In this document: positions 1,122-36,906 of the stretch, piece after piece | Position numbering within the stretch: position 1 is the stretch's first letter | How the letters are laid out: every line of letters starts with the position of its first letter | Virus record (IMG/VR): IMGVR_UViG_3300033143_007503 | Span: 1-37,977 of that record | Source: a virus | Strand: one strand, 5' to 3' | DNA: 37,977 nt | Notes under the pieces: model-generated | What the model was told of the DNA's origin: nothing | The model's database searches: none | The model's input: the letters and a program-made list of their open reading frames with translations, nothing else | Program-made: the position numbers and the translations under genes

Positions 1122-3950
1122 TTATACAATACCGCCAGCAGCGAGAACTTCCTCAGCAGAGAAACTCGCACCGGTCCGCAACACAACTAAATTCAAAACA
1201 ACAAATTCAACCGTCTTTGTGGGCTGCAAGAAAATCGACACCCACAATTCATTACGATCAATTCGTTCTGGGGTATTATTTGTCTCGTCTACAACTACTT
1301 TATAAGCCGTCAAGCCACGTCTGCTTTGGACATCAGCCAAGTATGGCGAAATTGAATTATCAACCTGATCCCAAAGAGCACGATCATTTGGTTCGAAAAT
1401 GAAGTTCCGTAGAACTTGTGTCATATTCTTCTTGATGCCAATTAAAAGCATTCTGACATCGACACGATCTAAAGCAGTTTGTGTCCGTTGTAAAGTTCTC
1501 TGCCCCCAAATTGTGATCCCATCTTGCGGGAATTTCACAATCGGATTAACAGCATTTCCAGAACCATACAATAAATCTCGCTCACCCTGCGTTGGTGAAT
1601 ACTCAATATCGAGTGCTGTCAGCAAACGACCACGACGTAAACCAGCAGGAGCAAACCACGTTTCAGCCTCACGAGCAGTTCTGGAAAACACAGCAGAGAC
1701 ATGACCACTGGGTGGAATCCAAACTTCTTGTCTACTAAATTGATCGTATACCCGCAACCAGCTCCAGTACAAAGCACCATAGCTGCTATTAATAGCAGTT
1801 CGCAAATCAGACAATAACATACCATTATGCCAGTCAACAACTTGCTGTGGTCTTAGACCAAACGGAGCATCTACAATGTACAGAACATCACCACGACCTT
1901 CACAAACTTGCAAAGCCGTACCAATGACTGAACCAGTCGAAAATCCAGGAGTAAGAAGCAAATTGATATCAATCGCTTCCGGATTCTGGAAAGCATACAA
2001 ACCAGTCGAAAGTGCTGGATTTCCAATAACTGCAGCATCCAATTCACTGGAATATGCCGGGTCAGAAGGAATACCATCAGCTTGACCAGTATAAACTTTA
2101 TTGTTAAATTGGGAAGGCTGACGAACATCATACGTGTCCAAACTCGGATTATTATTCAGATATGCCGGACGCTCTTCCCAGTTTGCATAAGGATTACCAT
2201 TAGTGCCGCCGAGAGTCGACCCAGCATTTATAACATTCCCAATATAACGATCATCAATCTTATCAAAAGAAATATCTTGGACTTGCTCTAAAGATTCTCC
2301 CTGAGAACCTTTAATTAATAAAGTATATCGACCAGCAGCGTCAAGAGGACCAGTAGTAAACGCACTAAGATTAAGCGTTAAACCATCGACCCACGTACCT
2401 GCAGAGGGAGCAACCAACCAACCGACAATATTAGCAAAATAAGCGGTATCAGCCACACATTCATTGCTAAGAGGATCTGCTTCACACGATAATGGTTGGG
2501 AAACAGTGGTTTCACCAGAAGCTGGCAGCAATACTCGATTATCATTAAACCCACGATAAGCACGGGTATAAGGATAAGGAATGTTCAATTCTTCGGCGAA
2601 TCGCAATGTTTTGAGATTCGAAAAATCTGCAAGCATCAAAAGAGTATCAAACTGATGGGTCGAACCAACTACAATCACAACATGAGTTGAACCACCAGAG
2701 ACTTGCAGCTCGAAGGAATCCCATAAAATATCACCAGCTACAACACCAGCAGTATCAATCGATGCCGCTACAGAAGCAGTTGTCTGATTAAGACCAACTG
2801 GAACATTAAATTCAACATCTAATGTTTCGGTCTGACCAATAACATTAATTCTAACACGATTGTTTTGCGAAGTAATATTGTAAGGACCAGGATCAAGACC
2901 CAATAAGTATGATCGTGGGATGTCCCAAGCATATGCTTGACTACCGCATTCGAGAGCAAAAGCAACAGTGCCAGTCAATTGAATTCTATCACCAGCGATA
3001 GTCGATCGGACTTGCGGAATAACCGTTTCGCCATCATCCAGTGTATGCTCTGTAAAAATGTAATCTTCACCAGAAATCAAAGCATTAGCTGCATCTGTAA
3101 ATGTCGCAGCATCCGTATAAGTCGCGGCCAACATTGTATAAACAGTTGGAGACGTATCACCTTCAATCGCTATGGTAAAATTACGGTTATTTGGCACAAC
3201 CGTAAAGCTGAATGTATCATTTTCATCAAGAACGCCAGAAGTCACTTCAACTTGTATAGATAATCCATCTTCAACTGAGATGAATGAAGATTGTCCAGTG
3301 TCTCCCGGATCATCTAAGATTCCTTCGGATACGATTATACCATCGCTATTTCTGACAATTTGATATCCAGCACCTGATACTGGCGCATTGTCTGAAATAT
3401 TTGGTGCTGATGTGATGATCATAATGTATGAGTCATCAACCGAATCGGAATAGGTAACATTTAATGTAGCGGCTGTCGCTCCAAAAGTATTGGAAACTTC
3501 AACATCATTATAATCAATCGAACTTACCGACGCATCGTGGAATACTAATGGGCTGTCGGCTGTGACTTCGCGAAAATTGATATGACCGAAATCAATGCCT
3601 TTGAACAATGGGAGTCGTCCCCAACCTTGTCCTCTAACACCTGACGTGTCGATGCAAACATCATCCAATTCGGTTGGTTGACCTTCTGCGCATTCAACAG
3701 CAACTCGCATTACATAGCATTGGTTGCCTTCTTCAAGATACGCTAAAACTGCATATCCGAGGAAACTTTTGGTAAATGGATTCCCAAAAGTATCAATATA
3801 TTGTGTTGATGTTGTAATCAGTGTCGCTACATTCAGCGGACCTTTATTGGCAGTACCAACAAATGCTGGACGTAGCGGACCAACAGATGTTGGTAGGACA
3901 CTGAGATCGATTTCCCTTGGGAAAACGCCGGGACTAAGATATACTGCCAT
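1122..3950 (-). CDS. contractile tail sheath protein (gp18-like)
   Basis: Main subunit of the contractile tail sheath. The N-terminus (AVYLSPGVFPREIDLS) is the classic myovirus sheath start. The C-terminal 150 residues (NFIFEPNDRALWDQV, LTAYKVVVDETNN, LWVSIFLQPTKTVEFV) match the conserved sheath core that wraps the tube. ATG at 3950 is preferred over ATG at 3965 because GGAG lies 9 nt upstream. At 942 aa it is much longer than T4 gp18 (659 aa); the extra length is in the beta-rich middle (about residues 100-450), probably surface domains. It is the last of the minus-strand neck/tail genes and follows a gp15-like gene, as in T4. Confidence 0.93.
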   Translation of the reverse strand: MAVYLSPGVFPREIDLSVLPTSVGPLRPAFVGTANKGPLNVATLITTSTQYIDTFGNPFTKSFLGYAVLAYLEEGNQCYVMRVAVECAEGQPTELDDVCIDTSGVRGQGWGRLPLFKGIDFGHINFREVTADSPLVFHDASVSSIDYNDVEVSNTFGATAATLNVTYSDSVDDSYIMIITSAPNISDNAPVSGAGYQIVRNSDGIIVSEGILDDPGDTGQSSFISVEDGLSIQVEVTSGVLDENDTFSFTVVPNNRNFTIAIEGDTSPTVYTMLAATYTDAATFTDAANALISGEDYIFTEHTLDDGETVIPQVRSTIAGDRIQLTGTVAFALECGSQAYAWDIPRSYLLGLDPGPYNITSQNNRVRINVIGQTETLDVEFNVPVGLNQTTASVAASIDTAGVVAGDILWDSFELQVSGGSTHVVIVVGSTHQFDTLLMLADFSNLKTLRFAEELNIPYPYTRAYRGFNDNRVLLPASGETTVSQPLSCEADPLSNECVADTAYFANIVGWLVAPSAGTWVDGLTLNLSAFTTGPLDAAGRYTLLIKGSQGESLEQVQDISFDKIDDRYIGNVINAGSTLGGTNGNPYANWEERPAYLNNNPSLDTYDVRQPSQFNNKVYTGQADGIPSDPAYSSELDAAVIGNPALSTGLYAFQNPEAIDINLLLTPGFSTGSVIGTALQVCEGRGDVLYIVDAPFGLRPQQVVDWHNGMLLSDLRTAINSSYGALYWSWLRVYDQFSRQEVWIPPSGHVSAVFSRTAREAETWFAPAGLRRGRLLTALDIEYSPTQGERDLLYGSGNAVNPIVKFPQDGITIWGQRTLQRTQTALDRVDVRMLLIGIKKNMTQVLRNFIFEPNDRALWDQVDNSISPYLADVQSRRGLTAYKVVVDETNNTPERIDRNELWVSIFLQPTKTVEFVVLNLVVLRTGASFSAEEVLAAGGIV

Positions 3951-4009
3951 TGGTGTCCGCTCCATTCGTCAAAATTGACTTCTGTGGGTATTTTTGACGA
4001 AATAACTAT

Positions 4010-4261
4010 TTAAGGAGTAACTGTTGTATGTTCTTCAGAATCGAAGACAATTCTAATCATCTTCCGTTTTTGTAGATTATCAACTTGTTCTTGAATTAAA
4101 TGTGTCTTTGGTAATAAAGCATTTTTTCCAGGATCAATTCTTACCTGTTGCTCATTACGATAAAAATCACTCCCAGGTGGTCTAACCTGTAATTGAACCA
4201 ATTGGTTGGAACAATTATAAATCCTAATCGTCTCAGTTTTCTTAGCTTTGCCAATATCCAT
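4010..4261 (-). CDS. small conserved virion-type protein
   Basis: Unrecognised 83-aa protein between the sheath and gp15-like genes. The sequence alternates beta-type stretches (TIRIYNCSNQLVQLQV) with a basic segment, and looks like a small beta-sandwich. AGGAG lies 5 nt before the second of two adjacent ATGs (4261), so that start is preferred to 4264. Its position suggests a tail assembly or completion role, but no motif shows this. Confidence 0.6.
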   Translation of the reverse strand: MDIGKAKKTETIRIYNCSNQLVQLQVRPPGSDFYRNEQQVRIDPGKNALLPKTHLIQEQVDNLQKRKMIRIVFDSEEHTTVTP

Positions 4262-4273
4262 CAATAGCTCCTA

Positions 4274-5131
4274 TCAAATATCTTGAACAGGTTCATACGA
4301 AGTATTACTAGATTCAGAAACGTAAAGGATTTTCCCCGTCATTTCTTTAACTAAACTAATCTGGCCCAGAACAGTCTTAACGATCGTCTCCGGTAGTGGT
4401 AACCACGCTTCAGCAACCATGGTTACTTCATACCGTACTTTTGCATGTGTATCAAATCCAGCTTCCTTATCACTAGAATCAGTAGAACCACTATAACGAA
4501 TTTGAATATTTCCCTGGATTTTACCATCGAACATTTTAAATTCAGCAAGAGGATTAAATCTAGTGAGGACTTGATATAATATATACTCAATATCTCTTTT
4601 ATGCTCAGCCCAAATTGTAAAATTATAATCAACAAGCCAAGGCGTAGGACGATATACCTGAGCAGCCATATCACCACGAGTACTCAAATATCTATGATTC
4701 ATAGGATGATAAGCTGGGCTAAACTTTTCCGGGTTAAACTCAATACCCTCCCGACTAATGGCAGCAACCGGCAAACGAACACGACCTTCAACAAGATCAT
4801 CATTCCAAATCAGAACACTCTTATCACCACCAGCAATCTTAACTCTCATAAAACGATACGAATCTTTAGTAGGCACCCGTATACCAGTCCAATACTGCTT
4901 CATCGCCTGGTCCAAAGACCTAAAACCAGGAATCAAGAATTCCTCTAAATATGTCGGATATTCCTGAACACCACTAGATTGAATATGAGTACGGCCACCC
5001 TCAGCATGACTCAACTGAGCCATAGCAGGAGTAGAAGGTAATCCTAACGGCAATTCACTAGGCGGAACAGTACGCTGTTCCGGATTTACCGTAAAATCAG
5101 AGCTAAAATCGTAAAGCGGCACGTCATTCAA
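4274..5131 (-). CDS. tail sheath stabiliser / tail completion protein (T4 gp15-like)
   Basis: Probably caps the tail tube and sheath at the head-proximal end. The segment around residues 160-240 (YRPTPWLVDYNFTIWAEHKR, then a region ending FNPLAEF) matches the T4 gp15 pattern of a beta strand followed by a helix and a phrase like IVEQILPYFQPHF. The earlier RFMRVKIAG and VRLPVAAISREG stretches fit its N-terminal strands. At 285 aa it is near the T4 gp15 length (272 aa). Its ATG overlaps the stop of the preceding 98-aa gene in ATGA. Order with the sheath downstream and a gp14-like gene upstream supports the call. Similarity was judged by eye. Confidence 0.7.
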   Translation of the reverse strand: MNDVPLYDFSSDFTVNPEQRTVPPSELPLGLPSTPAMAQLSHAEGGRTHIQSSGVQEYPTYLEEFLIPGFRSLDQAMKQYWTGIRVPTKDSYRFMRVKIAGGDKSVLIWNDDLVEGRVRLPVAAISREGIEFNPEKFSPAYHPMNHRYLSTRGDMAAQVYRPTPWLVDYNFTIWAEHKRDIEYILYQVLTRFNPLAEFKMFDGKIQGNIQIRYSGSTDSSDKEAGFDTHAKVRYEVTMVAEAWLPLPETIVKTVLGQISLVKEMTGKILYVSESSNTSYEPVQDI

Positions 5132-22479: not shown

Positions 22480-22616
22480 TGGTCCTGGCAGGAATCGAAC
22501 CTGCAATGCTGTTAATTCTCCGTGACTTACAGAATACTACCGCACGGATGGGATTATCTCGGCGGCTCTTAAACAGCGGAGAGCAACTCCCGCGTATACC
22601 ACTTCGCCACAGGACC
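22480..22616 (-). tRNA. aberrant 137-nt tRNA-like element
   Basis: Minus-strand ends pair as a perfect 7-bp acceptor (GGTCCTG/CAGGACC, then A). A Leu/Ser-type D-arm (GCG, loop AAGTGGTATA, CGC) and a canonical T-arm (GCAGG, TTCGATT, CCTGC) are present. Between them lie 87 nt instead of about 33. One reading: a cramped anticodon arm GGAG-TTGCT-CTCC (GCT would be Ser) followed by a giant variable arm. That arm would be closed by GCTGTT(T)AA/TTAACAGC and contain hairpin TCCGTG/CACGGA. No normal 7-nt anticodon loop can be drawn. It could be a damaged tRNA or a tRNA-mimicking RNA. Confidence 0.55.
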
Positions 22617-36390: not shown

Positions 36391-36403
36391 AAAGGGTATC
36401 TAG

Positions 36404-36486
36404 TACGGTCGGCGGGATTCGAACCCGCATGGCTGAGAGCCAGTGCGTTTTAAGCACACTGAGTATACCAATTCCTCCACGACCGC
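36404..36486 (-). tRNA. tRNA-Leu (UAA)
   Basis: Class II tRNA. Acceptor GCGGTCG/CGACCGT (G1-U72), A73, D-arm GAG-GAATTGGTATA-CTC, anticodon loop CTTAAAA (TAA), variable arm TGGCTCTCAGCCA and T-arm GCGGG-TTCGAAT-CCCGC. CCA is not encoded. It decodes UUA/UUG. Confidence 0.93.
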
Positions 36487-36823
36487 AAGCTCTCTTGGTG
36501 TGCTGTTACGCCAAAGGGCACAGAGTTAATTCTCTTCGATCCGGGTCTTGCTTGGGCTGATTTTCCAGTTTTCCCAAGTCACCGTCCTATCGCGGTTCTG
36601 GCTAGTTGGATAGGTCACACCGAAGATCTTCATTGCCAGATTGATCTTACAGACCAGACACGAGGACCACTTCGCCCACGCTTAGACGACCTAAATGGGA
36701 CAGAAACACGATTTCTGCATAGGATTTTAACGCCTCTGATCACGGCTGAAACCGCCCCCAACCTTATCGCGGCCCACTCCTTAGATGATGACTGCTCTTA
36801 AGCCAACATTCCAAAAGAAACAG
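36487..36823 (-). ncRNA. structured RNA with 23S GTPase-centre-like segment
   Basis: A 337-nt stretch without a credible ORF lies between tRNA-Leu(UAA) and tRNA-Leu(UAG) and is probably co-transcribed with them. The minus strand shows many stems: CAGAAA/TTTCTG, CCCA-TTAG/CTAA-TGGG, CCTATC/GATAGG, CTTGGG/CCCAAG with inner CTGG/TCAG, and GCC-CTTT-GGC. At its start (36775-36812) the sequence matches the 23S rRNA GTPase-associated centre (E. coli 1055-1091) at about four of five positions. I do not see RNase P, tmRNA or group I intron cores. Function is unknown. Confidence 0.7.
36775..36812 (-). ncRNA. 23S rRNA GTPase-associated-centre-like motif
   Basis: Compared from memory with bacterial 23S rRNA helices 43-44, 31 of 38 positions agree. 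ATGTTGGCTTA, AGCAG, CATCAT and GAGTG are kept. Changes include C to T at position 1075, which keeps a G-U pair, and swapped AG/GA at 1068-1069. The thiostrepton and EF-G contact base A1067 is kept. A further GCGATAAG follows, similar to the rRNA GCGTAATAG, after a short insert. Confidence 0.65.
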
Positions 36824-36906
36824 TACGGATGAAAGGACTCGAACCTTCACGAGCCGAAGCTCACAACTTCCTAAGAGTTGCGTGTCTACCATTCCACCAC
36901 ATCCGC
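36824..36906 (-). tRNA. tRNA-Leu (UAG)
   Basis: Class II tRNA. Acceptor GCGGATG/CATCCGT (G1-U72), A73, D-arm GTG-GAATGGTAGA-CAC, anticodon loop CTTAGGA (TAG), variable arm GAGCTTCGGCTC and T-arm GAAGG-TTCGAGT-CCTTT. CCA is not encoded. It decodes CUA and other CUN codons. Confidence 0.93.

Follow-up and report, generated by a model that had tools for sequence, protein, structure and literature searches.

Phage RNAs with the fold of the 23S rRNA GTPase-associated centre encoded within tRNA arrays of bacterial viruses

The GTPase-associated centre (GAC) of 23S rRNA, comprising helices H42 to H44, is the site of uL11, the translational GTPases and RelA activation (PMC4463622; PMC4409310), and the GAC can bind L11 in vitro as an isolated RNA (PMC10161774; PMC4409310). 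RNA imitation of a ribosomal-protein-binding site is exemplified by the L1, S15 and L10 leader RNAs, which act in cis on the mRNAs of ribosomal proteins. Phages, for their part, encode the large structured RNAs GOLLD and ROOL, often near tRNA genes, and in huge phages, genes for ribosomal proteins and translation factors point to interference with host translation (PMC7162821, PMC13157829); in the passages of these two papers that were searched, the elements described are proteins, with no rRNA-like RNA among them. The phage RNA described here shares with the 23S GAC (the uL11/thiostrepton site) the H43 and H44 hairpins, the three-way junction, the lone pair 1082:1086, U1060/A1088, the hexaloop GUAAYA and most letters, but it is free-standing and phage-encoded, accommodates 28-444 nt between positions 1090 and 1091, and possesses a U1090-A1101 pair, a UUUG linker and an outer stem of unrelated sequence. 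Unlike the cis-acting leaders, it lies mostly in tRNA arrays and a uL11 gene is found in 0 of 50 carriers, which rules out a ribosomal-protein leader. It also differs from GOLLD and ROOL, which have another size and core and no known GAC element; neither these nor any other curated Rfam model was reached by the RNA at the gathering score. We found no prior description of such an RNA in an open-licence library with few papers from subscription journals and without the bioRxiv collection.

The window analysed here is the complete IMG/VR virus record IMGVR_UViG_3300033143_007503, a stretch of 37,977 bases whose genes include those for a phage tail sheath, a sheath stabiliser and a DNA ligase among other phage genes. 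Four tRNA genes share the minus strand between 36310 and 36996, and a gap of 336 nt, in which a check found no ORF of 50 aa or more, separates tRNA-Leu(tag) from tRNA-Leu(taa). A few bases into this gap on the minus strand is UUCUUUUGGAAUGUUGGCUUAAGAGCAGUCAUCAUCUAAGGAGUG, the stretch that aligns to E. coli 23S 1057-1094, and the gap ends in CUUUGGCGUAACAGCACACCAAGAGAG, which holds the other GAC half (1091-1104) followed by a strand that forms a stem with the beginning of the RNA. The resulting outer stem, of 9-11 bp, begins 1 nt from either flanking tRNA, so that the gap is a closed module (Table 1). Elsewhere in the window, the minus strand of 22480-22616 scores 38 bits against the Rfam tRNA model over a 137-nt span and is not called by ARAGORN; it is possibly an interrupted or decayed tRNA.

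Table 1. Features of the GAC RNA and its flanking tRNA genes in the window, with 23S positions in E. coli numbering.
Feature	Coordinates	Strand	Remarks
Upstream flanking tRNA-Leu(tag)	36823..36906	-	3' end adjoins the outer stem of the RNA
Whole RNA, 330 nt, outer stem to outer stem	36490..36819	-	between tRNA-Leu(tag) and tRNA-Leu(taa)
Outer stem 5' strand UUCUUUUGG	36811..36819	-	at 23S H42 position, 1047-1055; pairs with 36490-36498
H43-like hairpin AUGUUGGCUUAAGAGCAGUCAUCAU, including A1067	36785..36809	-	1057-1081
Lone pair C1082-G1086, closes UAA turn	36780..36784	-	covaries U-A / C-G / A-U in family
H44 proximal 5' strand G1087 A1088 G1089 U1090	36776..36779	-	U1090 pairs with A1101
Inserted domain, 263 nt, between 1090 and 1091	36513..36775	-	closed by GGGC (36775-36772) / GCCC (36519-36516)
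UUUG linker ahead of G1091	36512..36515	-	almost invariant across family
H44 distal hairpin GC-GUAACA-GC (1091-1100), including A1095	36502..36511	-	pairs invariant
Outer stem 3' strand CCAAGAGAG	36490..36498	-	1104-1112
Downstream flanking tRNA-Leu(taa)	36403..36486	-	directly 3' of the RNA

The initial annotation of this DNA, which gave no strand, had proposed a 38-nt segment identical to 23S rRNA at 31 positions. The best ungapped 38-nt stretch (36809-36772) lies on the minus strand, and is identical at 29/38 positions to E. coli rrlB (1057-1094) and, compared letter by letter, at 31/38 to a Paenibacillus-type 23S (locus L003). It includes A1067, and the change of C1075 to U preserves a G-U pair with G1063, both as originally described. 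The proposed comparison with shuffled sequence gave a local score of 39, where the highest of 300 shuffles reached 33; the remainder of the window RNA scored 21, at shuffle level; taken alone, the match is a good one, not an overwhelming one. Two further readings had to be corrected. The 3' end of the RNA (36502-36515), previously overlooked in the belief that the rest of the molecule does not resemble 23S, is the second half of the GAC (H44). Likewise, GCGATAAG in the region of 36763-36770 had been taken for an echo of GCGTAATAG; the true counterpart is GGCGTAACAGCACACC, which lies at the far 3' end (36512-36497) and is conserved in the family.

The window RNA is thus a complete GAC in which 263 nt have been inserted into helix 44, and which is closed by an H42-like outer stem, rather than a continuous 58-nt core embedded in 23S sequence. 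The GAC core and the insert-closing stem together have 24 pairs, and all of them can form, among them every H43 pair (1057-1059:1079-1081 and 1062-1065:1073-1076; 98.2% of family cells paired) and all nine of the outer stem, each of which shows changes on both sides across the family. The lone pair is present as C-G, together with the tertiary letters U1060 and A1088, the H44 hairpin with its GUAAYA loop closes the three-way junction on the H42-like stem, and the U1090-A1101 pair replaces the A1090-U1101 of E. coli. Of the thiostrepton contacts, A1067 and A1095 both occur in the window RNA, A1067 being variable across the family. Single-sequence folding of the window RNA was unremarkable (z +0.49; H43 probability ~3%), which is what one would expect of a fold that depends on tertiary contacts, and the assignment of the fold therefore rests on comparison.

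We searched for relatives using patterns for either half of the GAC. A degenerate 5'-half pattern matched 88 IMG/VR contigs, almost all of which carry the same RNA, with a variable insert followed by the 3' half, and not 23S; a single contig, L090, holds ordinary 23S. When only the 3' half served as the pattern, matches were obtained in 47 and in more than 119 viral contigs, and at 16 sites in bacterial assemblies. Counting only matches with enough upstream sequence, the 5' half was found upstream on the same strand in 42/45, 55/61 and 12/16 cases, respectively, as compared with 0/45, 1/61 and 0/16 in reversed-sequence controls. The exact pattern GTTGGCTTAAGAGCAG was set aside, since none of its 11 matches in viral contigs came with the rest of the RNA and all were apparently chance occurrences in coding sequence. 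In total, we collected 207 loci with 176 non-redundant inserts from IMG/VR contigs, phage isolates, one megaplasmid and a few bacterial assemblies.

Among the carriers are 18 named phage isolates, including the Pseudomonas phages pf16, Milchi, Astolliot and UNO-G1W1, Aeromonas phage 4_4572, Cronobacter phage GAP32, Pectobacterium phage CBB, Serratia phage BF, the Xanthomonas phages XacN1, XbC2 and XaC1, Erwinia phage Kaldavass and the pEa_SNUABM group. In the carrier records inspected, the RNA is unannotated or overlapped by small predicted ORFs. It also lies within a stretch of 12 tRNAs in 6 kb on the 909-kb plasmid of Pseudomonas sp. FeN3W (CP136011.1 757210, L252), which may itself be phage-like. 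By blastn, the window RNA matched only true 23S contamination among the named phages. We note that true bacterial 23S is present in phage-deposited records such as MZ092003.1 (83976; L003), OR845016, OR850018 and similar entries, apparently through contamination or misassembly.

The comparison of family members supports the fold at each of its elements. In 48 diverse cores, 90.9% of cells were paired as against 66.7% after shuffling, with 335 double changes as against 113, and the covariation score of 0.605 (0.149 for shuffled cores) was reached in 0 of 500 shuffles, while slid structures gave 0.10-0.17. Across 126 non-redundant cores, compensated variation was seen in 1058:1080, 1057:1081 and 1082:1086, in the outer stem and in the insert-closing stem, the first pair of which is standard in all 126; in addition, position 1056 covaries with the lone pair. 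The U1060-A1088 combination is present in 126/126 cores and the H44 hairpin pairs are invariant, although the search patterns and the row filter account for some of this invariance. In sets found by the other half only, U1060 and A1088 are each retained in 76/76 and A1095 in 63/65; A1084, A1085 and G1087 are also invariant, but the rows had been filtered on these three. Position 1067 is less constrained (A in 55, G in 17, C in 3 and U in 1 of 76). Position 1061, where the U1061A substitution stabilises the GAC fold, is A in 24/76. U1061A is the variant used in the laboratory for isolated GAC RNA (PMC10161774). When run in permissive mode, Rfam LSU models recognised the core in two members (L033, 26.1 bits; L144, 20.2 bits). 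Homologues with a preserved GAC fold thus exist in number, and the common architecture and covariation of ~176 non-redundant loci strongly support the original proposal of a phage RNA carrying a GAC mimic; it is this family evidence, and not the window alignment alone, that settles the observation. On these comparative grounds, we consider the GAC fold near certain. A second, optional insertion, often a hairpin, occurs near 1078 in the H43 3' strand of some members (L108, L110, L114, L119, L122, L124, L125, L139, L191, L205, L211 and L234).

Across the family, tRNA genes lie within 2.5 kb of the RNA at 106 of 168 different loci, and all 620 of these tRNAs are on the strand of the RNA, with none antisense; the other 62 loci have no tRNA within this distance, and the RNA is far from tRNAs in GAP32, CBB and XacN1. 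Spacing is tight: among 65 upstream tRNAs, 35 have their end no more than 9 nt from the outer stem, and among 70 downstream ones, 32 have their start no more than 11 nt from it. This suggests that the RNA is released by tRNA-processing enzymes. An L7/L12-like domain scored above the cut-off in 4 of 50 carriers. We also observed tmRNA genes in six phages with the RNA (L027, L032, L085, L183, L187 and L216), the copy in L032 lying ~200 nt downstream of it, and a weak Rfam tmRNA match close to the RNA in L033 (4144-4232). In two Firmicutes assemblies, a DUF6273 protein is encoded next to the RNA, in L164 along with an Rnl1-PNK-phosphatase protein (2522-4714 and 1641-2423) and in L155 on its own (522-1304).

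The inserted domain is variable. The shortest insert, of 28 nt, is found in L080, and that of the window is largely unique, with one 44-nt match, to L123. A group of 39 inserts is linked by similarity, most of them with a type I tail (RGCACCCCGKAAAYGGUAAGGCYGAA), and another shares a type II motif (AGACCCUYAGAG); the window insert has neither. An apparent likeness of the type I GGUAAGG to RNase P or H69 had no Rfam support and was dropped. Consensus folding of whole inserts yielded little. Compared by blastn with E. coli 23S, the inserts gave 72 weak matches, as against 42 for shuffles, and only the sarcin-ricin loop was prominent. A subfamily carries in the insert a hairpin of the sarcin-ricin loop, which makes up the other half of the ribosomal GTPase site: five members pass the stem test where 0.02 would be expected in shuffles, and a sixth, L039, was recognised by eye. 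Besides L039, the subfamily comprises L033, L085, L128 and L238, with a diverged form in L118, and in four of the hairpins the offsets, of one base and of two bases, agree with those read in E. coli. The sarcin-ricin sequence AGUACGAGAGGA in a hairpin is absent from the window RNA and from most members. In L085, L128, L118 and L033, an upstream CGUACUA-type stretch is a perfect 8-11 nt complement of the sarcin-ricin-like sequence, and by virtue of this complementarity the two may also form a pseudoknot in these four members. The upstream stretch in L118 and L128 also resembles the 23S 3' end (GUACUAAUGAA match).

How might such an RNA act? That a free RNA keeps the GAC fold, while none of the 50 carriers encodes uL11, points to host uL11 or the host proteins that recognise this site as its targets. 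We propose that the GAC RNA would share a transcript with the tRNA cluster, from which tRNA-processing enzymes would probably excise it; in the window, RNase P maturation of the 5' end of tRNA-Leu(taa) would free its 3' end. The released RNA would then fold as an isolated GAC, with an H42-H43-H44 three-way junction and an extra variable domain in H44, would most likely bind host uL11 and could present a factor-docking surface off the ribosome, so as to titrate or capture uL11 itself, translational GTPases or RelA during infection. Judged from sequence comparison, we put the probability that the RNA is such a free-standing, trans-acting decoy or capture device for host uL11 and/or translational GTPases or RelA at roughly 45%. 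In a broader wording, held just as tentatively, an off-ribosome copy of the whole GTPase docking site (the GAC always, and the sarcin-ricin loop in some members) may capture uL11, GTPases, RelA or defence effectors that act there. In view of the thousands of ribosomes in a cell, titration of free uL11 or of a scarce factor is more plausible than that of EF-Tu or EF-G. Since the family tolerates other bases at 1067, it is doubtful that thiostrepton binding is a property under selection, and contact with A1067 itself cannot be the sole selected function.

Two other functional readings seem unlikely to us, if still worth weighing. The RNA could be a counter-defence decoy that lures a nuclease, modifying enzyme or other effector attacking the GAC or the sarcin-ricin loop, in the manner proposed for phage tRNAs and RNA ligases that counter tRNA-cleaving defences. 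Its place in tRNA arrays would fit, as would the neighbouring RNA-repair genes: an Rnl1-PNK-phosphatase protein is encoded 1.2 kb away in the Firmicutes (Flintibacter) assembly L164, a 2'-5' RNA ligase adjoins it in XacN1, and Rnl1 is encoded by 16 of 50 carriers, a count made among carriers only. The loop letters 1071-1072 and 1093-1095 are, moreover, almost fixed while the outer stem varies freely. However, we know of no bacterial effector that targets the GAC. Similarly improbable is a protein-binding handle within a phage ribonucleoprotein, in which the GAC would only recruit uL11 or stabilise the RNA and the insert would do the real work, in regulation or assembly. The large size and diversity of the inserts and their sub-conserved type I and type II motifs are in line with this possibility, but no part other than the GAC is shared by every member and an insert can be as short as in L080, so that the core seems to be the function.

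A role as a tRNA partner, with the GAC contact to the tRNA elbow serving to chaperone, sort or mature the co-transcribed phage tRNAs, is harder still to sustain. A1067, which we take to be the base that stacks on the elbow, varies in the family, and the loci without nearby tRNAs, including those of GAP32, CBB and XacN1, speak against it, even though the RNA elsewhere sits flush among tRNAs and the ribosomal GAC does touch the tRNA elbow (PMC4463622). Finally, the notion of no functional RNA at all, whether 23S contamination, the decayed remnant of an rRNA gene, or an integration (att) or homing site copied from 23S and acting at the DNA level, draws on the true 23S contamination in some phage records and is for practical purposes ruled out by the coupling of the 5' and 3' halves, by stems that covary to letters absent from rRNA, by the split of every member's GAC at one fixed position and by the presence of the RNA in many complete phage isolates, flanked by phage genes.

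If the reading of the RNA as a decoy or capture device for host uL11, GTPases or RelA is true, this would be the first case known to us in nature of a trans-acting RNA modelled on a functional centre of the ribosome, and a new kind of trans-acting viral RNA, working by mimicry of that rRNA centre. The family amounts to a collection of hundreds of natural variants of a classic RNA fold; it is widespread and unannotated, and its presence in cultured phages makes it directly testable. The data suggest that many large bacterial viruses make decoy pieces of the ribosome to manipulate or protect protein synthesis, and the GAC RNA could thus reveal a new viral way of taking over or shielding translation.
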